A stretch of DNA of 46,036 nucleotides, taken from positions 1-46,036 of the IMG/VR virus record IMGVR_UViG_3300035670_000378, one strand, 5' to 3'. Shown piece by piece: positions 1 through 46,036 of this stretch; within the stretch, counting starts at the first letter, position 1, and every line of letters begins with the position of its first letter. Source of the stretch: a virus. The notes beneath the pieces are model-generated. The model was given only the letters and a program-made list of their open reading frames with translations, searched no databases and had not been told where the DNA came from. Both the position numbers and the translations under genes were made by a program.

Positions 1-114
1 CTCGTCCAGCCATTTCAGGTATTCTCGGTAGTCACGATTGCCACGGTCTGCCGGGATGAATGCGCCATCTGATAGGCGCAGTACAGCACCTGAGTCTGTG
101 AGTTGGTAAGACAT
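1..114 (-). CDS. Tail-fibre-adjacent protein, 5' end only (cut by the window edge)
   Basis: An ATG at 112-114 opens a frame that runs off the left edge after 38 codons. Its sequence is identical to the first 38 codons of the complete gene at 44643-45071, so it is the same gene seen again at the overlapping end rather than a broken gene. It follows the tail fibre by 19 bases. See the complete copy for a description. Confidence 0.8.
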   Translation of the reverse strand, partial: MSYQLTDSGAVLRLSDGAFIPADRGNRDYREYLKWLDE

Positions 115-1082: not shown

Positions 1083-1732
1083 CCGCCATTGATCTCACTG
1101 ACCCGAGGAGTCAAGACGTTGGTGCCGATCTTGGATTGAGTAATGGCACTGTCAGCGATCTTGTCAGTGATAACAGCATCGTTGGCAATCTTGGCAGTGA
1201 TAACAGCATCGTTGGCAATCTTGGCAGTGGTTACACTCCCATCCAATGGGGTCCGCTGGTTGGTCAACCGGACATCGCTATCAACAACCGCTGTTCCGGC
1301 AATCTTAGACGGAGCAATGTCTGCGGTGTTGGAAACCTTGGCATTGGTCACCGCTCCGTCAGCGAGGGCCGTTGTTCCGATACTACCAGGGGTTAAGTTC
1401 CCAAGTTGAGCATCAGCAGCTATCTCTCTTGCTTCCTCTGACACGAAAAGCGCTTGGAGAAAGTTTTCGTTGAGCGCACTGCTGCGGATGCTGGAGTTTG
1501 GGAAAAAGGTGTTCTCAGCGGCGTCTGCTGTAGTTTCCCTTTCGATAATAATGGCAGCCCCATTGGCAGGAGCCACATTGAATTGGATCGTCGTGTCGTT
1601 GGCAAACGTAAAGGCAGTCGTCCCCGATCCGTTGACAGAGACCTTCACATGGTCTCGGTTGATGTAGGCAAATGTGATAGCGTAGAGGACGGTGCTACCA
1701 TCCCCTGTATAGCTGACCTTGATGTTAGACAT
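134..1732 (-). CDS. Tail fibre protein with T7 gp17-like N-terminus
   Basis: 532 residues. Residues 1 to about 115 match the T7 tail fibre N-terminal family that docks the fibre on the tail tube; the opening MSNIKVSYTGDGST followed by a YAITFAYINRDHVKV stretch is typical. Residues about 120-205 form a low-complexity shaft built on a ten-residue IANDAVITAK-type repeat. The C-terminal part begins with the cyanophage-type motif NGNFDIWQRGTSF...ADRW, contains a beta-rich, probably receptor- or carbohydrate-binding domain, and closes with a conserved tip. It directly follows the gp16-like gene (5-base gap), as in T7. A second, divergent version of its C-terminal 315 residues lies at 45091-46036. 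Function in host recognition is inferred from family and position. Confidence 0.93.
   Translation of the reverse strand: MSNIKVSYTGDGSTVLYAITFAYINRDHVKVSVNGSGTTAFTFANDTTIQFNVAPANGAAIIIERETTADAAENTFFPNSSIRSSALNENFLQALFVSEEAREIAADAQLGNLTPGSIGTTALADGAVTNAKVSNTADIAPSKIAGTAVVDSDVRLTNQRTPLDGSVTTAKIANDAVITAKIANDAVITDKIADSAITQSKIGTNVLTPRVSEINGGPLAGFRNAIINGNFDIWQRGTSFTGAGQYTADRWVTARTGSTFTTSRQSFTFGQTDVPGQPSFFFRTVVTSVAGSANNCRSFQTIEGVQTLAGQQVTVSFWAKADSAKNIAVELVQDFGTGGSPSAAVTGIGAVKKALTTSWQKITHTVTLPSVAGKTIGSDSNDGVSLVIWFDAGSDFNARTDTLGQQSGTFDIAQVQVEPGPVATPFEKRPLGVEEILCYRYYYVAAGGNEAGSNSSSFYASGTTGAWFAGIYHHPTTMRVNPTRTTDTPVYGNSSNLTVANGSKNFTRWTVAAASAGRYTVSWSETILDSEL
1167..1226 (-). repeat. 30-bp tandem duplication in the tail fibre shaft
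   Basis: Two near-perfect 30-base copies at 1167-1196 and 1197-1226 encode the ten-residue unit IANDAVITAK/D. Related degenerate units lie on both sides. The in-frame unit length allows fibre shaft length to change by slippage or recombination without disrupting the protein. Confidence 0.75.
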
Positions 1733-1737
1733 CTCGT

Positions 1738-4700
1738 TTAGTTAGGAGAGTTCAGGATCTGTTGGACTGCTTCGTACCGACCTGCTCTTGCCGCACGATT
1801 CAGGTTCTTGTTGTTGAGGACCCGCTGACGGAAGTCCATGTTGGTACGACTCATCTGCCGCAGGGCATTGTCTTTCACTCCAGTCCACACTGCCCACACC
1901 GACCTGTAGTGGGGTGGCATTTGTTCTGGGTTGTCTGGGTTGAACACACGACCACGGTGCGCTTCGGCAGCCTCTTTGAACTCTGGGGTCTTCATGACGG
2001 CCTCCAGTCGTTCCCTCAATCCCAGCTCGTACATGGTCCTGGTGAGCTCATTTCGGTCCTTGGCTGTGAGCTCCACGCCACCCAAACCGGTAGTATTGCG
2101 AGGAATACGGAAGTTGATGTCACTGAGCATCTTCTTGACCGGGTCGTTGTCTGCCGGCATGATCCGTACAGGAGACACAGCGTTGTAGAAGTTGCCTGCG
2201 AAGGAAGGAACCTCCTCACCTGTGAGAGGATCCACCCTGGTTGCCCCTTGCATAACCAGACCTCCAGTGGCCACATTCAACGCCCTTTGGAGCTCTCCAT
2301 CGACTTCCATGATGTAGGGTCGCATGGTGTTGTAGAGGGCCCTGCGGGCGCCAGCCATAGGCACGAAGTTGTTGAGGGTGTTGTAGATGGTACTTTCCAG
2401 CCCCTGAGGACTCATGTTCCGGGGGTTGAGCATGTCACCGATGGTGGCCAGTCCAGCCAAGAAGCTCTTCTCTGTCACAGCGGCAGCGATTGAGAAGCCC
2501 AGTTGGCCAATCAGCCGCTCAGCAGCATCAGCAGAACCCATCTTGGCAAGCATCACCGCATCCCCAGCAACGGACATGATCGAGCTGAGAGGTTCGATGC
2601 CTTGGTAGGAGACCCACTTGTTGCCGACTCGGATGCTCATGGGCTGGTAGCTCAGTAGCCATGCTTCTCGTTCTGCCCCTGGCGGCGGTCCGTTTCCGGT
2701 TAGGTTGTCGTTGAATGCCCAGATAGCCGGAGCAGCAACAGCCATAGCACCAATGGCCATACGACCCTGGTACTGGGCTTTATTGATCATGGCTGCTGGG
2801 GTCGTTGCATCATTGAGTAGGGCATCACGGGCCTCCTTGATGAAGAGGTTCAGTCCTGGTACATGGGTGCCACCGTACCGAAGCAGGTTGGCTGGGGTGC
2901 GGACGAAGGGAACCAGAACTCGGCCGAGCGGCATTTCTTCCAGGAACTTGGTCAGGTAGCCGATCATCGGTCCTGGGTCTTCTTGGAATGTAGCCTTCTC
3001 AGCAATCTCCAGTAGGTCTTGATCGAGGATGCGACCGGTCTCCGGGTCCATGCGCTTGCTGAACTCACGTAGGTAGGAGTCGACACCTTGGTCGAAGTTC
3101 CCAGCAAAGCGAGGATCAGTCAGAGCAGCCGCAGTGGCCTCCATCTTGATGTGCTGCCGTGCGACGATCGTCTTGAAGAAGTCGTCAGCAGCCGTCAGGG
3201 CACGGGTTGGCCAACTGAAGTACGGGTTGTGGTTGAAGTTGTAGAGGGCCTTGACCCAACCAACAGCAGTCTGCTCAGCCGGAGTGTTGGCCACAGCCTC
3301 CATGCGCTGGAGAATGGCCTGGGTCTCAAAGTCCTCAACGACGAACTTGTTCTTGGAGTTGATGGAGTCGCCAGTCTTGAAGGTGGTAGCCGCAACATTC
3401 CATGCCTCAAACACCGACTCTTGCATGGCCTTGTAGCCAGCAAAGGCGGCCCGGTAGGACACCTCATCACCTGTGAGCCCCTTGAGCAGCAGGGAGGTTG
3501 GGCGCTCCACAACAGCGTATGAGGTGCCCAGGAAGTTCCTCAGTTGACTGATTGGGCCAGAGAAGATGGAGTTATACATCACGTTCATGGCCTGCTCAGA
3601 GCCGAGACTGAGTACCAGGCGTCCGAACTTCACCGTCTTTGTGGGGTCACCACCGGCAAGGGCCATTGCCCGGGTCAGAGCCTGGATCTCCGCGTCTGCC
3701 TCGGGGCTTCCAATACGCTTGAGGTTGCGGATCTTGTCGACCCGCTTCTTCATTTCCTTGACACTCAGTAAGGAGTCAGTGTCGGACTCCACCCCAGCAC
3801 GACGCAGCTCGGCATCCGTGAGACCGAAGGATCGCAGGCCACCACCAAACTTGTTACCAGTCACCTTAACCAGAGTCACCATGGACTCCAGGCGATCCAA
3901 CATACGGTCGAATTGATTACCGTCTGATGCCCGGGCAAGGCGCATGGCGTCGGCATTGAGGGATAGCTGGTAGATGTCCTCAGCGGTCTGGGCAATCATG
4001 GTCTTCATGGCCACGACACCCTCCCTGGTAAGGATCCTGGTGGCTGCTGTCCCTTCTTCGTTGGTCAGAAGTTGGGTGGCACCACGTTCTTTGAGCAGCT
4101 CAACAATGTCAGGTGGATCACCATCGGTGTCTCGAAAGACTCCCATGATGTCTTCAACCAGACGACTGGAGCCCTCAACAACCGCATCGTCAGTGGTCTT
4201 GAGGCTCTTTGCGATTTCCTGGATGTCTACCCGTTGCTCAATGTCACGAACTACCTGCTCAGTAGCCTCATCCATGTTCATGAGGCGGTAGTTGGCATCG
4301 GTGAGGATGCGTTCGGAGCCTCCAATGGCAGGAGCGTTTCCCACGGAGTCTGCTTCACGTACGCCTGGACGACGTACAGCAGTTGGCAGGGCCCCAGAGG
4401 ACAGGTTTTCTTGCTGAACAAAGGCTTTGTTGACATCACCTTGACTCATGCTGGCGGCTGCTTCCTGAGGAAGGCGGCCTTCACCATCAGGGCGGTAGCC
4501 AGAAACGACCTCGTTTTCCAGTTGAGCTTTGGTCAGTTGCACCCGAGCCAGCTCATCCTCCATGCTGCGGAGGGTGGGGTCCTCGTCTGGGATTCCATTG
4601 GCCCTTGCTTCTTCAATGCTCTGTTGGAAGTCAGCTTCTTCCATGTTGAGCTTCCGCATTTCGGCTTCTTGGGCGTCCGACCACCGAACAGTTTCGATGC

Positions 4701-5733
4701 GGGCATCCTCAAGTCGCTTAGTTTCGAGCTCAGTCTTCTTTGTGGAGGCTGCTTCCAGTCCAGCCTTAAGGGCTTCTTCTTGGGATTTACCTTGACGGAG
4801 AAGAGCACGAGCCACGAATCGTCCGTGAACCATCCACATAAAGGAGTCAGCAACAGCACCAACCAGGCCCCCTTCGAGTACTGCTTTGGTGCGGGCTACC
4901 CACGGGTTGTCCTCGTCGTCTGCCGCCAAGGCAAACATAAACGTATCACGATACTGTTCTGGAACCATCTCCTGAACGAGGTTGCTCAGGTTGCCGTCCT
5001 CAGGATTGCTCAGTAGGAAGTCAGCAACAGCACCAGGGACAATGCCAGAGGCGATCGCACCCTTGAGGCCCCCTCCTTTTGTGCCAAGTTGCACGGCGGC
5101 TTGTGGAAGCCTACGGGCAGCAGCAATGCCTGTCAGGCCGAACGCCATCAGGTCACGACCAAGGCGGCCGATCTGGGTGTTGGGGGCCTGGAGGCCGAGA
5201 TCAGTCTTGGCAGCGACGTACTCAGCAGAGAATGGATTGTCCTTAGGATCAATACGTTGTCCGGTTGCTGCCTTGACGGCAGTAACAGCCGTGTCACCGA
5301 TGAGGGAGGAGGTGTCGATGATGCCTTCAACCACACGAGCCGCGCCACCGACAAGGACACGAACAGTCTCTGCGGCTGGGTCATTCTTGGATCTTTCCCG
5401 CATAACCCTATCTGCCTCCTGAAGCCGCTGACGCCCCTGCTGCTGGCGCTTACGGAACTGCTCAGGAGTTTCACCAGTTACCACCCCGGCAAGGCCTTCC
5501 TGGGCCCCCTGGACGAAGTCCTCCAGCCCTTGAGCCACTGGCCGGACAGCGTCCTTGAGCGGCTTGAGTGGGTCTTTGGTGCGTGCCTTCTTCTTTTCTT
5601 CCTCTTGTTTCTTCGCCTCGGCCTGCTGTCTTGCGGCCTCTTGTTGGCGTTTCTTCTCTTCCTCGTAGCGTTCCTGGGCTTCGACCCGAGAGTCGCGTAC
5701 CCCGGTGTTGTTAAGCTGTTCCCAAATGCTCAT
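1738..5733 (-). CDS. Internal virion (core) protein, T7 gp16-like
   Basis: 1331 residues, close to the 1318 of T7 gp16, and in the same place: after the gp14- and gp15-like genes and before the fibre. The N-terminus (residues about 15-55) is a highly charged E/K/Q/R coiled coil. The rest is helical, with Ala/Gly-rich segments around residues 180-240 that could insert in membrane. T7 gp16 starts with a murein transglycosylase domain; I see no such domain here, and a lysozyme-like domain sits in the upstream virion protein instead. In T7 these core proteins leave the capsid and build the channel that carries DNA across the cell envelope. Assignment rests on size, position and composition rather than on a catalytic motif. 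Confidence 0.85.
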   Translation of the reverse strand: MSIWEQLNNTGVRDSRVEAQERYEEEKKRQQEAARQQAEAKKQEEEKKKARTKDPLKPLKDAVRPVAQGLEDFVQGAQEGLAGVVTGETPEQFRKRQQQGRQRLQEADRVMRERSKNDPAAETVRVLVGGAARVVEGIIDTSSLIGDTAVTAVKAATGQRIDPKDNPFSAEYVAAKTDLGLQAPNTQIGRLGRDLMAFGLTGIAAARRLPQAAVQLGTKGGGLKGAIASGIVPGAVADFLLSNPEDGNLSNLVQEMVPEQYRDTFMFALAADDEDNPWVARTKAVLEGGLVGAVADSFMWMVHGRFVARALLRQGKSQEEALKAGLEAASTKKTELETKRLEDARIETVRWSDAQEAEMRKLNMEEADFQQSIEEARANGIPDEDPTLRSMEDELARVQLTKAQLENEVVSGYRPDGEGRLPQEAAASMSQGDVNKAFVQQENLSSGALPTAVRRPGVREADSVGNAPAIGGSERILTDANYRLMNMDEATEQVVRDIEQRVDIQEIAKSLKTTDDAVVEGSSRLVEDIMGVFRDTDGDPPDIVELLKERGATQLLTNEEGTAATRILTREGVVAMKTMIAQTAEDIYQLSLNADAMRLARASDGNQFDRMLDRLESMVTLVKVTGNKFGGGLRSFGLTDAELRRAGVESDTDSLLSVKEMKKRVDKIRNLKRIGSPEADAEIQALTRAMALAGGDPTKTVKFGRLVLSLGSEQAMNVMYNSIFSGPISQLRNFLGTSYAVVERPTSLLLKGLTGDEVSYRAAFAGYKAMQESVFEAWNVAATTFKTGDSINSKNKFVVEDFETQAILQRMEAVANTPAEQTAVGWVKALYNFNHNPYFSWPTRALTAADDFFKTIVARQHIKMEATAAALTDPRFAGNFDQGVDSYLREFSKRMDPETGRILDQDLLEIAEKATFQEDPGPMIGYLTKFLEEMPLGRVLVPFVRTPANLLRYGGTHVPGLNLFIKEARDALLNDATTPAAMINKAQYQGRMAIGAMAVAAPAIWAFNDNLTGNGPPPGAEREAWLLSYQPMSIRVGNKWVSYQGIEPLSSIMSVAGDAVMLAKMGSADAAERLIGQLGFSIAAAVTEKSFLAGLATIGDMLNPRNMSPQGLESTIYNTLNNFVPMAGARRALYNTMRPYIMEVDGELQRALNVATGGLVMQGATRVDPLTGEEVPSFAGNFYNAVSPVRIMPADNDPVKKMLSDINFRIPRNTTGLGGVELTAKDRNELTRTMYELGLRERLEAVMKTPEFKEAAEAHRGRVFNPDNPEQMPPHYRSVWAVWTGVKDNALRQMSRTNMDFRQRVLNNKNLNRAARAGRYEAVQQILNSPN

Positions 5734-5770
5734 GTGAGTTGGTTGCCCTCAGGCGTAGATGGTTAGCTGA

Positions 5771-5799
5771 GGGGGATACCCGCGCACAGGCATTCCCCC
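5771..5799 (-). other. G/C hairpin between the gp15- and gp16-like genes
   Basis: On the minus strand GGGGGA pairs with TCCCCC, with a second short GC pairing inside the loop. It lies in the 73-base gap just after the stop of the gp15-like gene. There is no T-tract, so an RNA-processing or mRNA-stabilising hairpin is more likely than an intrinsic terminator. Confidence 0.4.
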
Positions 5800-5806
5800 T
5801 TGTTAA

Positions 5807-8800
5807 TCAGCGGGGTTGTGTTCCGTGAAGGAACTGGAATCGGCGGCCATCAGGCAGCTCGATGATAAGGTGGTCAGTGCCCTGGTCCCCTTTGAAGGAA
5901 CCAACGACTCTTGCTCCGTTTTTGAGCATCACTTGAGTGCCCTTAGGCGCCGCGTAGTCATGACCGAAGGATCCACGTCTACGGTGGGCACGATCATCAT
6001 CGGTCGTAACTGACATGCGGGACATAGGTCCCCGGCGTCCATCAGGTAGGACAAGGTCAACGAAACGATCGAGAGATCCTGCTCGGTAGACAGGCAGGTT
6101 GCGGTCACTCTGGGTGGTGCCAGGGCGGACGGGTTTCACATCGATGTGTGGGCCTGTGGATCCGTATCCAAGGCTGTCCACCACATAGACGGTTCCACTA
6201 CTCGACCCCCTGGCCAGCCGAAAACCCTCGCGGGCCCTACGAAGCATCTGGGCAGCTTGGGTGGCTTCAATGCTGGATCGGTTACCAGCAATGCCTTCAA
6301 TGCCACTCCGGCCGGTGAAGTTTTTGATCACCGCAAACTCGTTGCTCAGGTCGTTGAGTGCAGCACCAATGTCGTCGCTTTCTCCTCGGAGGTAAGCGCC
6401 GAGGCGAGCACGCACACGGCTCTGAGTGAGTCGGGTAACAAACAGTTGATCCTGGACTGCCGGAGTGAACTTGGTGGTGTTCGGGTCGAGGCCCGCATCA
6501 CGCACCGTCTCTTCCAGTGTTCCACGGATGAACTGGTAGCGACCAACGGCCTTGTAGCCTTGACGCTGGAGATCCATGACCTGTTTAATGGTCAGGTTGC
6601 TGAGACCAGGATACCCAGCAGGGGTGTCGTTAGCAGTGCCCCGGTTGATCGCATTGTACTGTTGTGCGCCGCCCTCCGCGTTACCGATGATGTCCATGAG
6701 AGGACGGAGGGCTCGAACTTTACTGCCAAGGTCCGGGTCAGCACCTTGGAAGGATTGGGCTTGTTGTGAGGTTTGTTGAGCCTGGAGCCTACGTTGCTCT
6801 TGGCGTTGACGTGCGGCGTTAATTTCACGGAAGGCTCTGGTCTTCCGCCATGCAGGGACATTGGGATTGTCAATGATGGCAGCAGCAGCAGGGGCCAAGC
6901 GACGACGTTCAGCCGCCGATTGAGCCAGTTGCGCTTGCGTGATTTCTGTGAACGGTACGTTGTAAGCAATAGACTGATTCCTCAGTAGATTCTCAAAGCT
7001 CGTACCTGTGGCAGACATGATCTGCTGGGCTCGTGCCGTTGGCTCCTGGCCATTCATGAACCGTTGGGTGTTCTGGGTGAGCTCCTGGGGAGTCAGAACA
7101 AACGAGCTTCTGAGGTTTGGAGTGCGATTCTGGATCTCATAAGGGGCCACCTGGGTGAAGTCCCGAACAGGACGGGTGGCATTTTGAGGAACCGCCTGGG
7201 TGACGAATGGTGAGCGGGACAGGGGCCTGTTTGGCACCAACCGACCACTACCTGCATCGAACTTACCGCTGAAACGCGGATCGCTACGGTAACCATTCAT
7301 GAGGCTCTGGATGAGTCCATTGACATCAGCACTGCTGGGGGTTTGCCCTCTCGCAAGGAATGATGCCAGTTGGTTCCTCAGTTGAGTGGATACCTCAGCG
7401 GACAGGGTATCGACAAGCGGAGCCAGAATGGTCTGGACTTCGCCAATGTCAACAGCGGTCATGCTGAAGTTTTCACGGATCAGGGCCGTTGCTGCGTTGC
7501 GAACCACGGTGTCCTGACCCTTGGCAAGCTGAGTTGCCTGATCATCCGGCTTCATGGCACGGATTTTGTTGGCCTGATCTGGCTGGAGGGTCCCCTCAAG
7601 CACCATCTTTTTGAGCTGATCCTCAGTTGGAGGTGCTTGACCACGCTCGATGCTCTGGACGATCTGAGCGTAGGCAAAGGGATTGTAGTAAGCCCCCTGC
7701 ATTTCCAGTTGATTCAGGGCCTCCTGAGCCTTGAGATTGCCCTGTGAGGCGAGCTGCGCCAGGGTTTGCCGGGTCTGGTCGAAGGACTGTGTCAGGGCCT
7801 CCTTGTTAGTGCCAGCTCCTGCCAGGAGAGAGTTGTAGTCGGCAAGAACCCGATCAACAAGCTCATTCTGTTCTTCCTCCTTCTCAGCTTCAAACCTTTC
7901 CGCAGCAGCAGCAATCTGAGTCAGCGCCTTCTGGAACTCCTCCGGATACATGGACCCGAGAGTACCCATACCCGGATTGTTCGGGTTGATAGGCGTGAGC
8001 TCAAATGCCAACAGGAGGTCAGTGTTTTCAGTGACAGCACCAAGGGCAATGATTCGATCCACAAAGCGTCGGTTTGCTTCCCCTCGGGGAATGCCTTCCG
8101 CCTCGTAGGCCTTGATGGTGCTCTGGAAGAACTCCTGAACAGCAGCAGGATCCTCAGCAGATAGAGTCTGCCAAGATGTTCCGATTCGGCTATCCAGTTC
8201 AAACAGTGCGTTGTCTTTGTCCTCCTTCCTCCCCTGCGCCATGGTGTTGGCGATGATGGAGTTGTTGACGTTCTGGACAGTAGGAGTGAGGTGCTCAACC
8301 ATGAGGACAGGATTGATGCCCTTGAGGCCAGTAGCCTCGATGAACATCTGCTGCCCCACCGCTATGGCTGCTTGGATCTCTGCTGGACCCCTTGCCTCTC
8401 TGGGGGCGATCATCCTGCCATCAGGAAGAGGCACCGTGGCCTCTCGACTGTTCATGAACGTATCCATGACAGTCTGATACTGGGAGGCGGCCTTCTTGAG
8501 CGTCCCTACTGCCGCCCCATAGGCTTTCCAGCCTCGGAGGATGGGGCTGTTGACCCGTTGCTCTTCGGCAAGACCAAGGTCCACCTGAGCCGTTGCCTCG
8601 TTGAGCTGACCCTCATCAGCAGCAGCATTGGCTAGGACCTGCTCGGCCTGTTTGAACTGACGGAACTGGCCCTCTTCGATCTGGATCTCGCCATTCATGG
8701 CCATTGCGTACCCGATCTTGTAGTCGGATTCGTTCTTGGCCTTGACAGTTTCTGTTACAAAGTCAGAGAGAGTCTCACTGAATTGGGTCAGAGCCTGAGT

Positions 8801-9244
8801 CGTGGCGGCTCGATTGCGGGCGTTGTTTTCAAGGACACCGCTGAGCTGACTGAGGTATAGACCCTCTCTTTCCTTCTGCTGCTGGATGCCCATTCTTCGG
8901 GCACGGTCAGCCTGCTGGTTGGTAAACTCCCAGGCAGCCAGGGTTTGATTCAGTTGAATCTCATTGGCCGCCCGGTTGTTCGCCAGTTGGTTGCGCCCAG
9001 CAGTCTCGAAGTACTGTTGGGCTAGACCGGAGCTGCGTTGGTAGTTTTGTTGGACAGACTCTGATGCGGTGGCAAAGCTTCTTTGACGGAAAGCCTCTGC
9101 CCTTTCAATCTGTCTTGTCTGGTCGGCCGACTGCTGACGAACCGCAGAGGTTCTATCAACAGCAGCAACTGGGGAAAACCCTCGCGTTGAACGGGGACCA
9201 GTGAGCTGGACTCTCCTCCCTGCTGATTCGTAGATTTTGGCCAT
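5807..9244 (-). CDS. Internal virion protein, gp15-like, with lysozyme-like and M23-like C-terminal regions
   Basis: 1145 residues, against 747 for T7 gp15. Residues 1 to about 830 are helical and Q/A-rich, typical of a core protein. Residues about 845-960 look like a small phage lysozyme/transglycosylase: the motif GNAEGG (E857, candidate acid), then AVGRYQF (899-905) and a downstream FTPAVQDQLF. Residues about 1017-1145 have M23 peptidase-like pieces, GSTGPHID (1028-1035), then GHDYAAPKGT (1094-1103), then FLHG (1138-1141), in an order that looks permuted relative to usual M23 domains. A wall-opening role during DNA entry is inferred. Start MAKIYESAG follows the gp14-like gene after 29 bases. 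Confidence 0.85.
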   Translation of the reverse strand: MAKIYESAGRRVQLTGPRSTRGFSPVAAVDRTSAVRQQSADQTRQIERAEAFRQRSFATASESVQQNYQRSSGLAQQYFETAGRNQLANNRAANEIQLNQTLAAWEFTNQQADRARRMGIQQQKEREGLYLSQLSGVLENNARNRAATTQALTQFSETLSDFVTETVKAKNESDYKIGYAMAMNGEIQIEEGQFRQFKQAEQVLANAAADEGQLNEATAQVDLGLAEEQRVNSPILRGWKAYGAAVGTLKKAASQYQTVMDTFMNSREATVPLPDGRMIAPREARGPAEIQAAIAVGQQMFIEATGLKGINPVLMVEHLTPTVQNVNNSIIANTMAQGRKEDKDNALFELDSRIGTSWQTLSAEDPAAVQEFFQSTIKAYEAEGIPRGEANRRFVDRIIALGAVTENTDLLLAFELTPINPNNPGMGTLGSMYPEEFQKALTQIAAAAERFEAEKEEEQNELVDRVLADYNSLLAGAGTNKEALTQSFDQTRQTLAQLASQGNLKAQEALNQLEMQGAYYNPFAYAQIVQSIERGQAPPTEDQLKKMVLEGTLQPDQANKIRAMKPDDQATQLAKGQDTVVRNAATALIRENFSMTAVDIGEVQTILAPLVDTLSAEVSTQLRNQLASFLARGQTPSSADVNGLIQSLMNGYRSDPRFSGKFDAGSGRLVPNRPLSRSPFVTQAVPQNATRPVRDFTQVAPYEIQNRTPNLRSSFVLTPQELTQNTQRFMNGQEPTARAQQIMSATGTSFENLLRNQSIAYNVPFTEITQAQLAQSAAERRRLAPAAAAIIDNPNVPAWRKTRAFREINAARQRQEQRRLQAQQTSQQAQSFQGADPDLGSKVRALRPLMDIIGNAEGGAQQYNAINRGTANDTPAGYPGLSNLTIKQVMDLQRQGYKAVGRYQFIRGTLEETVRDAGLDPNTTKFTPAVQDQLFVTRLTQSRVRARLGAYLRGESDDIGAALNDLSNEFAVIKNFTGRSGIEGIAGNRSSIEATQAAQMLRRAREGFRLARGSSSGTVYVVDSLGYGSTGPHIDVKPVRPGTTQSDRNLPVYRAGSLDRFVDLVLPDGRRGPMSRMSVTTDDDRAHRRRGSFGHDYAAPKGTQVMLKNGARVVGSFKGDQGTDHLIIELPDGRRFQFLHGTQPR

Positions 9245-9273
9245 CTGTTGTTGACTCTAAGGGGGTAAGCTGG

Positions 9274-10296
9274 TTAGAACACGCCTGATGCTTGTAGACC
9301 CACACCAGTCTGAACGCCACCAATAATCGACCCACCGATTTGGCCAATAGTTCCAAGCACGCTGGGACCACGAGCGATCGGGACGGGACCCTTGATTGGC
9401 TTTGGTGGTTTGATGATGCGGCTCGGGACGATTGGTTGTACCTCGTTGATGATGGGCCTTGGTAGCAGTGGAGGTTCTGGGATGAATGCCCTTGGTATGT
9501 TGATTGGTCTGGGGATGTCGATCTTGTCCAGTGGCCTGAGCATTCGTCTGCTTTCTGCCTCGGCATTGGCGGACTGCTGAGCAAGCCATGCATCGTTCTG
9601 ACTGAGTGTGAAGTCAGTCTTGGCAAAGGCTAGGTTTGTGGCCAGGGTTCCTAGGTCTCTTGCATACTGCTGCTGAGCATCCATCTGTAGCCTGGCCATT
9701 GAGGCCCCAGTTCGTCCAGAAGCAGCAACAGCGCCCTGCTGTTTCTTGGTCTCCCTCAGAGCGTTTTCTGCCTCCACAGCGGTCGACATCTGCGCGAAGC
9801 GTACCTGTTGCTGGGCCCCCTCGTAGGCAAAGTTGGCGGCTTGTGAGTTGAGCCTAAGCTGCTCGGCATAGGCCTTTTCACTCTGAGCAAACGCCCGCAT
9901 ACTAGCCCGGTACTCAGCAGCCTGGAGGGTCTGCTGGAGCTGCCAGTCCATCTTCTGAGCAGCAGTACGATACTGCCAGTCCAACTCAGCGTTGGTCTTT
10001 TCACGGATGTAGTTGAACCGGTTGACAGCGTTTGTGAACTGCCATTCCTGGTTTGCGGTGGCCTGGGCAATGGCAAGTTCTTGCTGAGCCTTGGCCGTTG
10101 CATACGCCAACTGATTTCGAGAGTTGACAATCTCGGCTCTTCGGTCGCGGAGCTGCTGCTGGTAAGTGAACTCCGCTTGAAGAGTGTTGATTTTATTCTG
10201 GTCGCTTGCTGCTCTGTCTGCGTCGTTCTTTTGACCGATGGCGCCTGCGATGCCAGCAGCGGCCCCAACAACACCAGCAATAATTGGAAAAATCAT
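9274..10296 (-). CDS. Internal virion protein, T7 gp14-like
   Basis: 340 residues. The N-terminus (residues 1-20) is a hydrophobic, Gly/Ala-rich segment, followed by a long Q/A/E/R-rich helical region to about residue 250 and a proline/isoleucine-rich tail. This is the standard architecture of gp14-like proteins in T7-like cyanophages; T7 gp14 is thought to form the outer-membrane part of the ejection channel. Its ATG overlaps the stop of tail tube protein B (ATGA), indicating translational coupling. Confidence 0.88.
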   Translation of the reverse strand: MIFPIIAGVVGAAAGIAGAIGQKNDADRAASDQNKINTLQAEFTYQQQLRDRRAEIVNSRNQLAYATAKAQQELAIAQATANQEWQFTNAVNRFNYIREKTNAELDWQYRTAAQKMDWQLQQTLQAAEYRASMRAFAQSEKAYAEQLRLNSQAANFAYEGAQQQVRFAQMSTAVEAENALRETKKQQGAVAASGRTGASMARLQMDAQQQYARDLGTLATNLAFAKTDFTLSQNDAWLAQQSANAEAESRRMLRPLDKIDIPRPINIPRAFIPEPPLLPRPIINEVQPIVPSRIIKPPKPIKGPVPIARGPSVLGTIGQIGGSIIGGVQTGVGLQASGVF

Positions 10297-13208
10297 AGGA
10301 CTCTAATTCCCTTGGTATTGTAGGTGCCTTCCCACACCAATGAGTTCATGGCTGTAGGGAAAGGCGAATCAGCAATGAAAGAGATTTCGGTAAGGTCCCC
10401 ACGAGACATCACTGGGAATGTGTTCTTACCAGTACGCAGCATCGGGATGTTGTTTGCGAGCGTTACATTGGCTACTCGCTGTGGGATCTCAAGATCGAAT
10501 GGTCCTCTACCAACAGAGTTGACAAGAACCCTGAACGGCCCAGACTCAAAGCTGTCAATCTGGATCCGGTTGATGGTTGGGATGTTGATTGTGTCAGCGC
10601 GGCCGTCCTCCCCCTGCCGTAGGTAGAAGCTTGGCATCAGGGCGGTGGCCGAGTACTTCAATCCAAGAGCAATGCGAGTGCCGGTACGGTCTCCAGGAAC
10701 TACCACGAAGTAGCCGCTCATGTCCTGGTCAATGTCAGGCTCCTCTACGTTGCCCGGATTGAAAGGATCGAGGCTCACGACCACAGGCTGGCAGCCAGGA
10801 ATGTAGTAACCATCTTTGAACCTAATGGTGGACTCATCCGTCACCGCATCGTAGGTGACAGCAGGTAAGTAGTCGAATAGATCCAGGCGAACGTCGTAGA
10901 CCTTCCCTTCGAATCTGATGGCTCCTGTGGGGCTGTCGCTGATGAGGTTCATCTTGGCGACAACGGTGGGACCACCTGATGGACGAATCACAGCGTAGAT
11001 GTTCTCTTGGTAGAAGAACAAGCCTTGAACGGGTCCAGGCATCGTCCACTTGAACCAACTGGCCATCACCCGATCATTACCCCTGTCAAAGAACCTGAAC
11101 AGGTAGATGCTTTCAGGAGACCTCGTTGTACGTGAAGCCACAACGTTGAGGCTTTGGCTGACCTTGAGATCATTGATGTCCGCAGGAATGTAGGTAGGGA
11201 TGAGTCGGGTGATTTCTGTTGCCTGAACACGTCCCTGTCTTCCATCGCCTGGGGCCATTTCAAACATCATTGTGGCTCGCTCGTTCTCTTCCGCAAAGAT
11301 GAACGTGGACCCGGTGTCAACAGGACCAACCCTGAACGTCTCTGGGTAATTGGATACCTGATTGATTTCAGCAGAGGCAGCCGAGAATGCGTCGGTGTTT
11401 GTACCAAGGACGTACTGGGCGTTGTCTGCGAACAAGTAGAGGCCCTGGTTGGTAGAGATTCCAAACCTCAACTGAACAGGGGTCCTGCTTCCGCAGCTAA
11501 TGTCGATCGGATCGCTGTCCAGGAACTGAGCTGCCGAGTCGGCGTAGAAGTTGAAGAAGTCACCCGCCTTGGAGCAGGAAACGTTCTCACCAGACATAAT
11601 CACCAGACGGTTCTGGAAGAAGGACATGCCACTGATAGCTACCCCAATGAATGATGGGTTGGGGTTAGTCACCACATCTCCAACCTTACGATCAGTCCAT
11701 GACTGCTTGGCGAATGGGATGACAGACTGAGTGACTGTCTGAATGCCCGTCACTGTAAACGTGGCACCGTTGGAATCACTGACAACATCGCTCAGCGTGT
11801 AGCCACGTCCAATGCGGCTAGGCTCCACCAGATCAATCACCCCTGTCCTGACTGTCAAGGTAGTGAGGGGTGCTTCAAACTCCTGGATGACATCAGGGTC
11901 TACAGGAGCCGTGGCTACGAATGCGCCACCAACTGAGTAAGTGCTATCTCCAAGGGTGATTGGATCGGAAGTGGATGTTCTTGCAATTTCCACCCCACTG
12001 ACTTGCCAAGAGTATTCTTGCCTGTCTGCGAAGACTGACCACACTACCCGAGTCGTACTAGGAAGCACGCTTGTGGAGGACGAGGTATCGGTACGGGTTT
12101 TTGTAACCCGAAGGCGTAGATTGATTCCAGTGCCACCTGATACTGCAAACGTCTGGCCAACAGCATAGGAGGCCAGGCCTGGATCCAATACGGTTGCGGT
12201 TGTCACAGTGCCGGCGACATTGGCTGTTGCTGGCGTTGCAGTAGCGAGTGCCTCGGAGAACTCACGGAATGTGAAGGTCCCGTCTGCTTCTTGTATGAGT
12301 ACGTGAGGTAGGGTCGTTGCCTGAGCTCGTATCGGAGCGCCTGGTGCTGCGGTTTCGACCCACACACCAGAACCAGAGGCACCCCCGTTCGTAACCTGGA
12401 ACTCCAGCCAATAGCCAGGAACTCCGGATCCAGGTACTCCAACTTGAATCTTGTCCCCATTGAAGTACTGACGGGGAAGCTGACCAACGGACGGTACGAT
12501 TCCTGAGTAGGCCTCGATAGCATCACCACTCAGACCACCAGAAGCCCTGGCACTGAACGCAGCGTTGTCTGCTCTTCGGACACGAATGACGTTGCCAGTG
12601 GTTGTTGCCACATAAGCCGGGTTGGCGTTGATCAGGGCAGCGATGGCGTTCCGAACCAGATCCACATCAAGGTTACCGCTGGCAGGACTGGTATACGTAA
12701 ATGTAGTGGCATCAACCGTAACCGAATACTTGGTCTCATAGGAGACTGTGTTCAGCACAAAGAAGGCTGTTGGTGTGATGCTGGCAACAACAGCAGCATC
12801 CTGGAGTACTCGCACACCCCTGTTGACAACGAACACAAAGTCGTTGATCTGGAGCAGCTCGATCTGTGACTGATCGGTGTGCGCCGCATAGGCTAGGGCC
12901 GAGGCAGACAAGGCATTTACTGTCTGCTGAACGCTAGATTCTGCGTCCCAAATGCGAACCTGACCATTCTTGGCGATCTGAACAATGAACCTATTCTCGG
13001 AGTCCAGGAACAAGGAGAAGTAGGAACCATCTTCAGTTGCGTTTAAGAGGCGACCAATGGCTCGTGTGCCAGGACGCTTGAGAAGTCCAAAGGTAGGGTC
13101 AGGCAGATAGTTGTCGCACTCTCTCAGTTGCCCAGGTAGTTTGAGAGAATCCGGCTGCTGGGATACCCCACCGATCAGGTTGGAGATTTTCTGAGAGATT
13201 ACGGGCAT
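10293..13208 (-). CDS. Tail tubular protein B, T7 gp12-like
   Basis: 971 residues (T7 gp12: 794). The opening, with ISQKISNLIGGVSQQPDSLK and then GQLRECDNYLPDPTFGLLKRPG, is the diagnostic signature of tail tube B proteins. The protein is beta-rich throughout and builds the nozzle of the short tail. It lies between tail tube A and the gp14-like gene, as in T7. The extra length relative to T7 is in the middle (about residues 200-480), which is Thr/Ser/Val-rich and may carry inserted beta domains. Confidence 0.95.
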   Translation of the reverse strand: MPVISQKISNLIGGVSQQPDSLKLPGQLRECDNYLPDPTFGLLKRPGTRAIGRLLNATEDGSYFSLFLDSENRFIVQIAKNGQVRIWDAESSVQQTVNALSASALAYAAHTDQSQIELLQINDFVFVVNRGVRVLQDAAVVASITPTAFFVLNTVSYETKYSVTVDATTFTYTSPASGNLDVDLVRNAIAALINANPAYVATTTGNVIRVRRADNAAFSARASGGLSGDAIEAYSGIVPSVGQLPRQYFNGDKIQVGVPGSGVPGYWLEFQVTNGGASGSGVWVETAAPGAPIRAQATTLPHVLIQEADGTFTFREFSEALATATPATANVAGTVTTATVLDPGLASYAVGQTFAVSGGTGINLRLRVTKTRTDTSSSTSVLPSTTRVVWSVFADRQEYSWQVSGVEIARTSTSDPITLGDSTYSVGGAFVATAPVDPDVIQEFEAPLTTLTVRTGVIDLVEPSRIGRGYTLSDVVSDSNGATFTVTGIQTVTQSVIPFAKQSWTDRKVGDVVTNPNPSFIGVAISGMSFFQNRLVIMSGENVSCSKAGDFFNFYADSAAQFLDSDPIDISCGSRTPVQLRFGISTNQGLYLFADNAQYVLGTNTDAFSAASAEINQVSNYPETFRVGPVDTGSTFIFAEENERATMMFEMAPGDGRQGRVQATEITRLIPTYIPADINDLKVSQSLNVVASRTTRSPESIYLFRFFDRGNDRVMASWFKWTMPGPVQGLFFYQENIYAVIRPSGGPTVVAKMNLISDSPTGAIRFEGKVYDVRLDLFDYLPAVTYDAVTDESTIRFKDGYYIPGCQPVVVSLDPFNPGNVEEPDIDQDMSGYFVVVPGDRTGTRIALGLKYSATALMPSFYLRQGEDGRADTINIPTINRIQIDSFESGPFRVLVNSVGRGPFDLEIPQRVANVTLANNIPMLRTGKNTFPVMSRGDLTEISFIADSPFPTAMNSLVWEGTYNTKGIRVL

Positions 13209-18671: not shown

Positions 18672-18855
18672 TGTAGGTAATCTCCTTGAGTCGGCGGATC
18701 ACCTCAATGGCACCCGCTTTGAATCCTTGTTGGTAGTCATCTAGGCGGGTGCGTGGGTGGATGTCCGGGTAGGCATCCTCAAGTTGCTCAATGACACCGT
18801 TCAGGTATCGCCGTGAAAAGTCACTGGATACATCTGAAAGAGTGAGCTCATCCAT
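18649..18855 (-). CDS. Small hypothetical protein after nrdB
   Basis: 68 residues, MDELTLSDVSS... ending ITYNDNSMAK. I chose the ATG at 18855 because it overlaps the nrdB stop by only 8 bases; a longer reading would lie deep inside nrdB. It has an acidic first half, a YQQGFKAGAIEVIRRL helix in the second half, and overlaps the following gene by 23 bases. Function unknown. Confidence 0.7.
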   Translation of the reverse strand: MDELTLSDVSSDFSRRYLNGVIEQLEDAYPDIHPRTRLDDYQQGFKAGAIEVIRRLKEITYNDNSMAK

Positions 18856-19576
18856 ACTGGGGAAGGTCGGTGTTGGCAGCTTCAAAGAACGCAGGCATAC
18901 GAGCACGCTGAGTGTCAGATAGGCCCGGTGCCTTGCCACGCTCGTAGAGGGAATCCGATTGAGACAGCCAGAAGTCTTTATCCAGATACTTGTTGGGGTG
19001 GGATTTCAATCCATCAACTACCCATCCCACAGTCGCTCGACGAAGGCGATTGAGGCTTGGTGTGGACTTGAGGCCCAGCTCGGAACAGACCATGCTGTGG
19101 ATGGCGACGTGGGTCTGTTCGTCTCTGCTGATGTCGGCTGCGGTTGTGCGGATTCCGATGTCTCCGTTGAACCGGTAGAAGGGGAGGAGGACGAAGAAGA
19201 CACTGCGTTCAAGGATGGCTGCTTTGAGGATTGGATGCTCCGGTGCGTCCATCCATGCTTTGAGGATGTGGCGACCTTCTGCTTCGGCTTTGGCTTCCGT
19301 GCCGTGAGCGGAGACCACGTACTCCAAGGCCTGGTCGTGGCGCTCTTCGTCCATGATGTTGGACTGGAGGGCCTCCACCACACCAGGGGTCTTGGGCAGC
19401 TCCTTCTCAAGTCCCTGCTTGAGGAACTCAGAGACGGGCAGCTCCAGGGTGCGGAGGGCCAGGGCCCGGTAAATGGACTCCTCAGAGCCGTCTACCAGCT
19501 TTCCACGTTGAACAGCCACGGGGGTCCATTTCCGCTTCCGGTTGACCACCTGGGTGTAGGGAGACTGAGTCATCAT
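18848..19576 (-). CDS. nrdB: Ribonucleotide reductase class I beta subunit, short cyanophage type
   Basis: 242 residues, much shorter than cellular NrdB (about 375 in E. coli). It should house the metal-radical cofactor for the adjacent alpha subunit. Visible ligands are the helix C motif E77-x-x-H80, E123 (helix E, ILERSVFFV), and helix F motif E153-x-x-H156 (SRDEQTH); a first acidic ligand is probably E45 or E50. The position equivalent to E. coli radical Tyr122, four residues after the helix C His, is L84. So a canonical tyrosyl radical at that site is not possible. Start codons at 19576 and 19573 are adjacent; the first overlaps the nrdA stop (ATGATGA). Confidence 0.88.
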   Translation of the reverse strand: MMTQSPYTQVVNRKRKWTPVAVQRGKLVDGSEESIYRALALRTLELPVSEFLKQGLEKELPKTPGVVEALQSNIMDEERHDQALEYVVSAHGTEAKAEAEGRHILKAWMDAPEHPILKAAILERSVFFVLLPFYRFNGDIGIRTTAADISRDEQTHVAIHSMVCSELGLKSTPSLNRLRRATVGWVVDGLKSHPNKYLDKDFWLSQSDSLYERGKAPGLSDTQRARMPAFFEAANTDLPQYG

Positions 19577-21006
19577 TCAGCGCAAGAAGAACAGGAACCA
19601 TCCGTTGGGCAGAAACCAACAACCTCTTCATCGTCGGTCAGATGGGAGGTGTCGATCTCACTGAACTTGAAGAAGTCACGGAAGTCTTCATCAAGGGCGG
19701 CCAGGGCGTCATCCTTGGCCTGAGTGTCAGGCATGACCTGGAGGGCGTAGTAAAGAGACGTTTGTGGCGAGTTGAGCCACTCACTCAGGAACTTCTCGTC
19801 GTAGGTGACGACATCACTCCAACTGTTGAAGCTGTAGCCGTGGAACAGAAGCGTCTCCTGATAGAGACGAACGATTCCATCTACGACTCGCTTGTAGTCC
19901 TTCCAGCCGACTTCCGACGCGATCTCACAATCCGGCGGATAGTCATAGGACTGAACTCCAAACGTGCCAGAGTCCCGATCAACATGACGACTGATAGGAG
20001 GAGCAAGCTCTGGGGTAGTAGTGTAGCCACGCAGATCAGTGTACTGATAACTGCAAGAAGCTGTAGGCGCGATAGCGAACGCACGGACCATCCCAGCGCT
20101 GCGAGCGATGTCAGCAGCTTTACTGATGCCCTGCGCCAAGCAAGAAGCCAGAAGGTCGGCCTTGTTGGAGGGGTCGGGGATGGCGAGGAAGTAACGATCC
20201 AGGGCTCTTCCGAACTCTCGATAGCTGACTTCGTTTTGTGCCAAGAAGTTTGCAAGGCCCAGGAGTCCAAGCCCAACCTGCCTATCAATGGAAGGCGGGA
20301 GATACTCTCCAGTCTCTCCAACTCCCGTGCGGCTGTGCAGCCCAACGAGTTCGGACATACCCTCGGTGAAAGCATCAACGAGAGTTTCCGTGGTAGTGGC
20401 GCCGAGGTTAATGTGCTGGAGAAGGCAGGTTCCCCTTGATGGCAGATACACTTCCAGGCACACGTTTCCGTAGATTCGTTCTCCATTTTGATCGTAGCGG
20501 ATCTTGTTAAGCCAGATGTCCCCCTTTTTGATACCATCCAGGACGGCTTCAATCAGCTCAGGGCTGGACTTGACAAGGAACTCACTGTCGACATTGAGGC
20601 AACGCTTGACCCAAGGAAGTTCGGATCGCTTTGCCTGGATGAACTTGATGGCATCCGGGTGAGTGTAGTCAAGGTGGATGACCACAGCACCGTTCTTGTA
20701 GACACCACCACGACGCAGGGTCTCGTTCAGAGCGGAGTAAATGCGGGCGAAGGAGACAGGACCGGAAGCAGTCAGGCCACGACCATTGTCATCCCCCTCG
20801 GGGCGTAGCTTACTCAGGTGGATAGCGCAGCCAGCACCATTGCGGAGGGCGTGAGAGGCGAAGCGCCAGGAGGCTTCGATTCCGTTAGGCCCTTCCATTT
20901 CGTCTTCAACTACGAAGACAGTGCAGCTTACCGGCAAGCGTGAGGTTGGGTCGTCAATCCAGTTCTGGACTCGGCCGGTGCGAGCGATCGGACTGGTGGT
21001 GGTCAT
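19573..21006 (-). CDS. nrdA: Ribonucleotide reductase class I alpha subunit, short cyanophage type
   Basis: 477 residues against about 760 for E. coli NrdA; there is no N-terminal ATP-cone, so activity may escape dATP shut-off. Active-site residues are present: C28 (LPVSC), the N181-x-C183-x-E185 motif (NVCLEV), C194 (RGTC), the tyrosine dyad Y419-Y420 (SLYY) that relays the radical in class I enzymes, and a C-terminal redox pair C472/C475 (CSSCAE). The tyrosine dyad and the adjacent nrdB argue for class I. Enzymes of this cyanopodovirus type were earlier called class II. It reduces ribonucleotides to deoxyribonucleotides from host RNA turnover. ATGA overlap with mazG upstream and nrdB downstream. 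Confidence 0.92.
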   Translation of the reverse strand: MTTTSPIARTGRVQNWIDDPTSRLPVSCTVFVVEDEMEGPNGIEASWRFASHALRNGAGCAIHLSKLRPEGDDNGRGLTASGPVSFARIYSALNETLRRGGVYKNGAVVIHLDYTHPDAIKFIQAKRSELPWVKRCLNVDSEFLVKSSPELIEAVLDGIKKGDIWLNKIRYDQNGERIYGNVCLEVYLPSRGTCLLQHINLGATTTETLVDAFTEGMSELVGLHSRTGVGETGEYLPPSIDRQVGLGLLGLANFLAQNEVSYREFGRALDRYFLAIPDPSNKADLLASCLAQGISKAADIARSAGMVRAFAIAPTASCSYQYTDLRGYTTTPELAPPISRHVDRDSGTFGVQSYDYPPDCEIASEVGWKDYKRVVDGIVRLYQETLLFHGYSFNSWSDVVTYDEKFLSEWLNSPQTSLYYALQVMPDTQAKDDALAALDEDFRDFFKFSEIDTSHLTDDEEVVGFCPTDGSCSSCAE

Positions 21007-43421: not shown

Positions 43422-44416
43422 TATGCGTTCTCCTTGATAAGGTTGATGAGCTTGACTGGGTAGGTTGGGTCGGTGGCATAGCCCTCACGACGTAGCATGT
43501 GGCACGCTTCCTCCCAGTGAGGGGCGTTGTTGATGCCCCGGAAGCCCTTGTAGTCCTTGTACCAGAGTCGGATGAGGTCAGCTATGGACTCTTCTGGGGT
43601 TCCATAGTCCTTGAAGGTGTCGGTGATGGTCACCCACTTGCCGTTCAGGAACTCCTTTGTCTCCTTGGAGGAGCCGATCGAACCCTTGATGCCGAAGAAG
43701 TTGTTCTTGCCGGAGGTGTACTTACCCCAACCACTTTCCAGGGCCCACTGGGCAGCGACTACCTGGGGGTATTTGGCCCCCTCAAACGCAGCAACAGCCT
43801 CCACAGCCTTCCAGTTCGGTTGATACTTGGGGGCGTTTGGCTTTGGAGCAGTAGGTTTGGGCACTTCTACCCGCCGAATGTCCATAAACCACCCACTGCC
43901 AGGACCTTCGACCTCCCAGCGTGGTAGCCAGTTGCGGAGAGAGTACTTGACTGCCTTACCACCGGACCCGATTCGGACGTACCCACCGTTAACGTTGTCC
44001 AGTTCCCCGTAGGGGTCGTGGAAAATGCCGTGAGTGGAGGTGAGGCCGATCAAAAGAATCCAGTGTCCCCCTCCTCGCGGGGCATTGGCAGGTCCATGAT
44101 GAAGGAACCCGACAGGAACCGGCAGACCAGCAAGGAGACGGTCACGAAGACTCTGCAAGGATCCATTCCGATGGAACGTAGCCCTCACGTTGTATTGACT
44201 GGCCGCCCTGATCTGCGCTGCTGCGTTAGTGGTGTCCCCATACTTGAGGACGGTTCGGAGGTAGTCGTCGTCTGCGTTGGAGCCTAGGAGGGCCTGGGGC
44301 CACAGGTATTTGATACCCATGGCCATGGTCGAGCTGAAGCACATCCTGTCGGCGTGAGCCGTGCGACTATCCGTTTGTGGATAGTACTGAGGCACGTTCA
44401 GGATGATGTCACTCAC
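43421..44416 (-). CDS. Bifunctional endolysin: C39-like peptidase plus GH73-like glucosaminidase
   Basis: 331 residues, starting with GTG in a GTGA overlap with the holin-like gene. Residues about 1-180 are C39-peptidase-like: VPQYYPQTDS, the nucleophile region RMCFSSTMAM (C26), GGGHWILLIG with H118, and HDPYG with D135 as third member. A proline-rich linker (residues 184-200) leads to a glucosaminidase domain: VVAAQWALESGWGKYTSGKN with catalytic E227, NNFFGIKG, and FKDYGTPEESIADLIRLW. It cleaves cell-wall peptide and glycan at lysis. T7 uses an amidase (gp3.5) instead. Confidence 0.9.
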   Translation of the reverse strand: MSDIILNVPQYYPQTDSRTAHADRMCFSSTMAMGIKYLWPQALLGSNADDDYLRTVLKYGDTTNAAAQIRAASQYNVRATFHRNGSLQSLRDRLLAGLPVPVGFLHHGPANAPRGGGHWILLIGLTSTHGIFHDPYGELDNVNGGYVRIGSGGKAVKYSLRNWLPRWEVEGPGSGWFMDIRRVEVPKPTAPKPNAPKYQPNWKAVEAVAAFEGAKYPQVVAAQWALESGWGKYTSGKNNFFGIKGSIGSSKETKEFLNGKWVTITDTFKDYGTPEESIADLIRLWYKDYKGFRGINNAPHWEEACHMLRREGYATDPTYPVKLINLIKENA

Positions 44417-44637
44417 AGGCGGTTGACCTCACTTTGAAGTTCCTTGAGCTTTTCCTTGAGGGTACGGATGGCGTCGTCTTCCTTGCGGAACAGTTTGAGT
44501 TGGCCCACAATGCCTTGAGCCACCTGCACGAGGTTGTTGCCCTTGATGGGGAGGTAGGGGACCAGCTCATCCAGGAGGAAGAGGATCAGGAAAGCGGCTG
44601 CCTCGACGGACAGCTTGATGCCGAAGAACTCGATCAT
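44413..44637 (-). CDS. Holin-like small membrane protein
   Basis: 74 residues from ATG 44637 (MIEFFGIKLSVEAAAFLILFL). One hydrophobic segment (residues about 9-30) is followed by a charged coiled-coil tail (RKEDDAIRTLKEKLKELQSE). The frame is open further upstream but that part overlaps the neighbouring gene. Located just before the endolysin and coupled to it (GTGA), a position typical of holins. It could also be a non-lysis membrane protein. Confidence 0.75.
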   Translation of the reverse strand: MIEFFGIKLSVEAAAFLILFLLDELVPYLPIKGNNLVQVAQGIVGQLKLFRKEDDAIRTLKEKLKELQSEVNRL

Positions 44638-44642
44638 TTGTC

Positions 44643-45071
44643 TTAAGGGGTAATGGTATAGATCTGGTCGAGGTTGCTTGAAGCGAGTACCGCTTGAAGC
44701 TCGGCCAGTTGCTCCTCCGTAAAGGAGCCGATCGAAAGGATTGCCAGCATGGACTGCTGGATCGCAGCCTCGTAGGGCCTGCCCGCTTTGGCATCCCCCA
44801 GCAGCGCGATGAACTCGGTGCCAAGGGTATTCATGGGCAGCGACACCATCGACTGCTCGCGGATGGCGGCGTACAGGCTGCTGGCCATCAGGCCCTCCCA
44901 GAAGGCGTTGTAGTCCGGCGCTGGGGGAGGCACTGGAACGGGCTCGGGGGTGTTGCCCTCGTCCAGCCATTTCAGGTATTCTCGGTAGTCACGATTGCCA
45001 CGGTCTGCCGGGATGAATGCGCCATCTGATAGGCGCAGTACAGCACCTGAGTCTGTGAGTTGGTAAGACAT
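44643..45071 (-). CDS. Tail-fibre-adjacent protein, probable fibre assembly or accessory protein
   Basis: 142 residues. The N-terminus SYQLTDSGAVLRLSDGAFIP and the motif ADRGNRDYREYLKWLDEGN with a following Pro-rich linker (PEPVPVPPPAPDYN) are typical of the small proteins encoded beside tail fibres, related to fibre assembly chaperones. The rest is helical (MLAILSIGSFTEEQLAELQ). Its first 38 codons are repeated without change at 1-114. It lies 19 bases after the fibre stop. Confidence 0.8.
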   Translation of the reverse strand: MSYQLTDSGAVLRLSDGAFIPADRGNRDYREYLKWLDEGNTPEPVPVPPPAPDYNAFWEGLMASSLYAAIREQSMVSLPMNTLGTEFIALLGDAKAGRPYEAAIQQSMLAILSIGSFTEEQLAELQAVLASSNLDQIYTITP

Positions 45072-46036
45072 TAGCGTTTATCTGTTACGATTAGAGTTCT
45101 GAATCCAGGATAGTCTCACCCCAACTTACGGTGTACCGCCCGGTAGCTAGCGCACTTACAGTCCATCTGGTAAAGTTCTTACTACCATTGGCCACAGTTA
45201 GATTTGAAGAGTTTCCATAGACAGGGGTGTCTGTGGTTCTTGTTGGATTGACTCTCATTGTAGTTGGGTGGTGGTAGATACCAGCAAACCAAGCGCCCGT
45301 GGTTCCACCTGCATAGAAACTTGAGGAGTTTGAGCCAGCCTCATTACCTCCGCCAGCGACATAGTAGTAGCGGTAGCAAAGGATTTCCTCTACTCCAAGT
45401 GGTCGTTTTTCAAAAGGCGTAGCAACCGGCCCTGGTTCCACCTGGACCTGAGCAATGTCGAAGGTTCCAGATTGGTGACCTAAAGTATCGGTGCGGGCAT
45501 CAAAGTTGGAACCGGCGTCGAACCAAATGAGCAGACGCAGAAAATCATTAGCATCTGTGCCAAGGGTTTTTCCGCTTATTGACGGTACTGTCACAGTGCG
45601 TGTAATCTTCTGCCAGTCAGTACTCAGTGTGACTTTAAGCGTGCCAATTCCTGTTACATCAGCACTGGGCGAGCCTCCAGTGCCAAAGACCTGAGCAAAC
45701 TCAATAGCAATAGGTTTTGCTGCGTCGGCTTTTGCCCAAAAGCTAAGAGTAATTTGCTGGCCGGCAAAGGTTCTGACATCCTCTATTCTTTGCTGTAGGT
45801 TAACTGCGTTTGCAGCACCAGCTACTGAGCCAACAACCGTTCTACAGAAGAACTGAGGATTTCCCGGAACGTCCGTTTGTCCAAGAGTGAATGGCTGTCT
45901 ACTTTGCGTACTTGTAGATCCGATTCGCAGGTTAATCCATCTATCGGCTCCATAGCCGCTTGTGGAAAAACTTGTTCCCCTCTGCCAGATGTCAAAGTTG
46001 CCATTGATGATGGCGTTCCTGAACCCTGCCAGTGGG
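44958..46036. repeat. Right copy of the imperfect terminal repeat
   Basis: Partner of 1-1082. The offset is 44957 at the left side and 44954 at the end, meaning a net three-base, in-frame length difference inside the variable fibre domain. Homology persists to the last base of the window. Confidence 0.85.
45091..46036 (-). CDS. Tail fibre, second allele, C-terminal part (cut by window edge)
   Basis: 315 codons, open to the right edge without a stop, in frame with the fibre motif PLAGFRNAIINGNFDIWQRG. Compared with the copy at 134-1732, the entry motif and the last 110 residues (from about GTFDIAQVQVEPGPVATPFE) are almost the same, with tip changes such as SALAT for AAASA. The intervening 190 residues differ at roughly a third of positions, with many synonymous and amino-acid changes but no frame damage. 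It is therefore a functional-looking alternative fibre domain. Confidence 0.88.
   Translation of the reverse strand, partial: PLAGFRNAIINGNFDIWQRGTSFSTSGYGADRWINLRIGSTSTQSRQPFTLGQTDVPGNPQFFCRTVVGSVAGAANAVNLQQRIEDVRTFAGQQITLSFWAKADAAKPIAIEFAQVFGTGGSPSADVTGIGTLKVTLSTDWQKITRTVTVPSISGKTLGTDANDFLRLLIWFDAGSNFDARTDTLGHQSGTFDIAQVQVEPGPVATPFEKRPLGVEEILCYRYYYVAGGGNEAGSNSSSFYAGGTTGAWFAGIYHHPTTMRVNPTRTTDTPVYGNSSNLTVANGSKNFTRWTVSALATGRYTVSWGETILDSEL

Follow-up and report, generated by a model that had tools for sequence, protein, structure and literature searches.

Two tail fibre alleles at the overlapping ends of a T7-like phage record

Extent and identity of the end overlap

We wanted to understand why both ends of a catalogued virus genome encode the C-terminal part of a tail fibre, in two forms that agree at their flanks and disagree in between. 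The stretch of DNA that was analysed in full, referred to here as the window, is IMG/VR record IMGVR_UViG_3300035670_000378, with a length of 46,036 nucleotides. An earlier sequence-only reading had held that positions 1-1082 and 44958-46036 are homologous, and comparison of the window with itself by blastn confirmed this, returning that pair as a single repeat with 82% identity; the rest of the window genome outside the end pair is single copy. The match is exact from 1 to 127 (44958 to 45084), and mismatch begins at 128. Up to position 511, the two copies are near-identical, with 12 differences, four of which are isolated (128, 163, 352, and 396). We noted that the other eight are packed into 17 bases near the fibre C-terminus (187-203 and 45144-45160), where one allele reads AAASA and the other SALAT, the rest of the tip being near-identical. 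As had been proposed, the middle of the fibre is strongly diverged, with about 63% DNA identity over 512-1022, and the final 60 bases of the overlap return to 97% identity, with 2 differences (1034 and 1064).

The coordinates of these features are collected in Table 1, in which the complete fibre at the left end is called allele A and the one at the right end allele B. As claimed, neither frame is interrupted and their lengths differ by a single codon, allele B having 314 amino acids against 315 in allele A counted from the same residue. In allele A, residues 5-108 matched the T7-like fibre N-terminal domain PF03906 (60.4 bits; cut-off, 25.2); the domain is absent from allele B because the contig end removes that part. 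The gene adjacent to the fibre had been described as equal at both ends; the match is indeed exact, but the left end holds just the first 113 bases of that gene.

Table 1. Coordinates of the end overlap, the fibre alleles and the neighbouring genes in the window
Feature	Positions	Strand	Basis or remark
Exact overlap, first copy; k=127 branch vertex with 1 in-edge and 2 out-edges	1-127		Overlap and graph
Exact overlap, second copy; circle closes here, unit of 44,957 bp	44958-45084		Overlap and graph
Tail fibre allele A, complete, 532 aa	134-1732	-	PF03906 N-terminal domain, middle domain (predicted CBM4-like), C-terminal tip
Tail fibre allele B, C-terminal 314 aa, ended by contig end	45091-46035	-	ORF and profiles
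Shared tip and anchor, allele A; near-identical to B	134-511	-	dS/dN and alignment
Shared tip and anchor, allele B	45091-45468	-	dS/dN and alignment
Diverged block, allele A; about residues 236-408, predicted CBM4-like beta-sandwich	512-1022	-	Alignment and fold
Diverged block, allele B; one codon shorter	45469-45976	-	Alignment
N-side anchor, allele A, PLAGFRNAIINGNFDIWQRG; motif kept family-wide	1023-1082	-	2 of 60 bases differ from B
N-side anchor, allele B, reaching contig dead end	45977-46036	-	Alignment and graph
Gene after the fibre, phrog_28714	44643-45071	-	First 113 bases repeated at 1-113
Internal virion protein before the fibre	1738-5733	-	77% identity in nearest relative, L080

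Assembly graph and gene order at the record ends

We rebuilt a k=127 graph using only the window sequence, in which low-coverage branches cannot show. The graph consists of one circle, a small bubble, and a 728-base dead-end tail, with four special nodes, including a vertex (1 = 44958) that is entered by one path and left by two. Past this vertex, the bubble runs to 204 (= 45161) and is followed by a 148-base shared stretch and a fork that leads either into the genome or into the dead-end tail. The record is, then, one turn of a 44,957-bp circle carrying allele A followed by a dead-end branch carrying allele B. Comparison with the ends of ten other long records showed that half of them (G001-G005) share end sequence, in four of these five cases (the IMG/VR records G001-G004) as an exact overlap of 127 bases that closes the record; a divergent end overlap like that of the window was seen in none of the ten. 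Because the overlap is exact over 127 bases, and is so in other IMG/VR records as well, we conclude that the contig ends mark a branch of the k=127 assembly graph and are not biological termini. One of these records, the T7-like G002, closes by its exact 127-base overlap inside its own fibre gene (a 1007-aa frame; L194 and L195), and a single such record is too few to claim fibres as a usual break point.

In simulations with COBRA, contig ends of length maxK occurred at assembly breaks with both metaSPAdes and MEGAHIT, and COBRA judges contig joins by such maxK end overlaps (PMC10914622). The window resembles these breaks in that its exact end overlap equals the largest k-mer and its end lies at a graph branch, but it differs from them in overlapping itself after a full circle, with both branches in one record. 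A direct terminal repeat is identical at the physical ends and, in T7-like phages, lies outside the fibre region. Such a repeat was considered and rejected, since only 127 bases are exact and divergence lies beyond them, and since the record ends of Syn5, S-TIP28, and S-CBP2 lie past the large terminase.

Profile searches of the window detected a single-subunit RNA polymerase (phrog_414) and T7-type structural genes in order, among them an adaptor (phrog_449), capsid (phrog_267), tube (PF17212), and terminase (phrog_38), in an order that matches S-CBP2. The window is therefore a metagenomic assembly of a T7-like podovirus of the Autographiviridae with cyanophage kin, about 45 kb in genome length and probably a cyanophage itself. 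Its gene content and order are those of S-CBP2, Syn5, S-TIP28, and S-B28, most fully of S-CBP2: RNA polymerase, primase/helicase, DNA polymerase, portal, capsid, tail tubes, internal virion proteins, fibre, lysis genes, and large terminase. It differs from these cyanophages in its portal, which is at most 63% identical (S-CBP2), and in having a circularly permuted record, with its ends at the fibre. In all four cyanophages, just one fibre of the window type lies contiguous with the internal virion protein on one side and with lysis or packaging genes on the other. Further, in the nearest relative, L080, the sequence continues through the fibre to the start MIEILGIKLTYEAAAFL, which resembles the window gene at 44413-44637, a likeness judged by eye. 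This gene order in the cyanophages and L080 indicates that base 1 of the window adjoins base 44957 and that the contig ends are not the physical ends of the phage. The DNA likeness between the L080 fibre and that of the window is restricted to the N-terminal part, which shows that fibres get replaced in this lineage.

Wider searches added little. An exact 31-mer scan found no near-identical record in viral_contigs, the best fibre relatives being about 70% identical; no second contig with allele A or B was found in viral_contigs or genome_contigs, from which very near records may be missing; window 1-12000 matched nothing at the DNA level in the phages collection; and a host genome search returned distant domain relatives only. 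Neither Rfam nor tRNA scans detected anything in the window. We also noted that the ribonucleotide reductase region (18848-21006) holds two overlapping frames, of 477 and 242 amino acids, of which only the first, 477-aa frame matches a reductase family in Pfam; the S-CBP2 reductase is one gene of about 748 codons, and the window enzyme is possibly split or shortened.

Origin of the two fibre alleles

Within this one fibre gene, dS leaps from 0.02 in the tip to saturation in the middle. Over the 120 codons of the tip, 9 changes were nonsynonymous and 2 synonymous, with a dN of 0.034 and a dS of 0.023; the diverged block had a saturated dS and a dN of 0.27, far below dS. The regime switches at about residue 408, on an anchor found family-wide (VEPGxxATPFExRP...LCxRYY). 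At the other side of the block, the 51-nt core of the NGNFDIWQRG anchor is 92% identical between A and B in DNA, against a family median of 69%, and exceeds in this all but 0.3% of family pairs. This suggests that B rejoins the sequence of A at the N-side anchor, just before the contig stops. The conserved far flank that had been claimed extends over the last 60-70 bases or so before B ends and contains synonymous differences, so that it may reflect a return to identity.

The pattern is the reverse of that seen in the family. Among 54 homologues, the median pairwise identity was 56% in the middle domain and 12% in the C-terminal tip, whereas A and B are 91.5% identical in the tip and 66% in the middle; of the 516 pairs whose middle identity resembles that of A and B, just 5 have over half of the tip in common. 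The diverged block of B is 70% identical to that of L007 and 69% to that of L085, compared with 66.5% to A, and a tree of the diverged block only grouped A and B in 40% of bootstrap trees. Strong grouping of A and B as sister alleles appeared only when the identical anchor was included, and that tree was dropped as biased. An exchange of the block with the copies of other phages, rather than divergence in place, appears to fit these data best. The near-identical tip and downstream gene start beside a strongly diverged middle domain point to domain exchange by homologous recombination, and we infer that recombination gave rise to the difference between the A and B blocks. Comparable mosaics occur elsewhere: a 1.2-kb fibre cassette with conserved ends and a diverged centre is 87% identical between the otherwise unrelated contigs L006 (1657-2829) and L016 (7991-9181), and L004 and L109 match at the two anchors and over 1.1 kb downstream, with a domain centre that megablast left unaligned. 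We also observed tandem fibre arrays with the same CBM4-like domain (L049:4201-11900, L061:4902-13419, and L044:3524-7476), which reach seven fibre genes, the number present in both L049 and L061, and represent a true array architecture in other phages.

Taken together, the exact 127-base overlap, the gene order of relatives that closes the circle, and the mosaic block make it very probable that the window derives from a population of T7-like, cyanophage-like phages in which two fibre haplotypes are present, the record being the circle with allele A plus a branch into allele B. An exchangeable fibre segment in a population was one of the two readings that had been offered, and it is the one that these data support. 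One haplotype would have swapped its CBM4-like middle domain by homologous recombination within conserved anchors, leaving A and B with a common downstream gene start and tip and with old, strongly diverged middle domains. The assembler would have closed the 44,957-bp circle carrying A, met the k=127 branch point again, entered haplotype B, and come to a dead end. The two haplotypes would then have coexisted in one sample, and allele B could come from a phage that differs further upstream of 46036.

The other reading on offer, a real duplication, would mean a single genome in which the fibre, and at minimum the beginning of the next gene, is present in two tandem copies, and whose assembly broke in the repeat. 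Such a genome would give the same k=127 graph signature, and arrays with a CBM4-like domain do exist in other phages (L049 and L061). However, the array copies examined are diverged along their whole length (DNA identities mostly about 67-83%) and lack the long identical flank of the window, the inspected relatives hold a single fibre of this type, flanked by the internal virion protein on one side and lysis genes on the other, and the duplication would demand a truncated or duplicated neighbouring gene as well; we therefore regard it as improbable. It is very improbable that the B tail is an assembler chimera, taken from another phage species with nothing but the tip and the neighbouring gene in common with the window. 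Although B ends about 60 bases into the N-side anchor, and phages that are otherwise unrelated can have a domain cassette in common (L006 and L016), those last 60 bases are again 97% identical to A and the 51-nt core 92%, which suggests that B rejoins A, and the k=127 graph of the window, to which low-coverage branches are invisible, has no second in-branch in the neighbouring gene. Generation of fibre variants by a diversity-generating retroelement or by a DNA inversion or recombinase system would agree with variation limited to part of the fibre gene, but a variable block that spans about 510 bases, contains a one-codon indel and is saturated at synonymous sites is unlike adenine-targeted change, and we give this explanation next to no credence. 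No reverse transcriptase (RVT_1) and no resolvase, integrase, or serine/tyrosine recombinase family was found in the window; with the end pair as the only repeat in the blastn self-comparison, and no inverted copy there, both the retroelement and an invertible fibre system were rejected.

The exchanged domain and comparison with known systems

The swapped middle block is, by structure prediction, a CBM4-like beta-sandwich domain. The AlphaFold model had a mean pLDDT of 88.5, and the top PDB matches of the middle domain in Foldseek were the CBM4 structures 1k42 and 1gui; PF02018 (CBM_4_9) scored 26.1 bits for A, against a cut-off of 25.9, and fell under the cut-off for B. The predicted fold suggests that the domain may bind glycans. 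The sequence-only reading had taken the variable part for the receptor domain and the layout for that expected of host-range switching, and neither view is supported by our results. The middle is conserved family-wide, and the hypervariable part of the family, which presumably faces the receptor, is the tip that A and B have in common. Further, dN is far below dS in the block, and the differences between A and B fall where the family itself varies (mean column entropy, 2.17 against 0.87 bits), with no enrichment in loops found, and thus show no sign of selection for new binding. Host-range switching is neither shown nor favoured; exchange of a shaft or adsorption domain beneath a common tip seems likelier. 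A broader scheme, in which a CBM-like shaft domain and a receptor tip are separate exchange units in this phage group, the tip being kept and the domain swapped via short anchors, is a tentative and rather doubtful generalization, hinted at by the layout of a kept tip and a swapped domain in the pairs L006/L016, L004/L109, and L078/L013/L085.

A fibre gene that varies between strains can thus leave its mark in a catalogue as a record longer than the genome, with two alleles at the ends, and, read literally, such a record would be mistaken for a duplicated fibre or a linear genome of about 46 kb. By the same token, whichever part of a fibre differs need not be the receptor domain. In marine metaviromic islands, tail fibre and carbohydrate-binding genes vary among co-occurring phages that are near-identical elsewhere (Mizuno, Ghai & Rodriguez-Valera 2014, PMC3909814); the locus shows as poor read recruitment in a population where the remaining genome recruits at high identity. 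The window is probably a new instance of this known kind, and its fibre mosaicism is ordinary for phages. In both, the fibre varies and the T7-like N-terminal fibre domain is conserved; in the islands (PMC3909814), however, it is the C-terminal region that varies, whereas the two alleles of the window have a common C-terminal tip and diverge in the domain preceding it.
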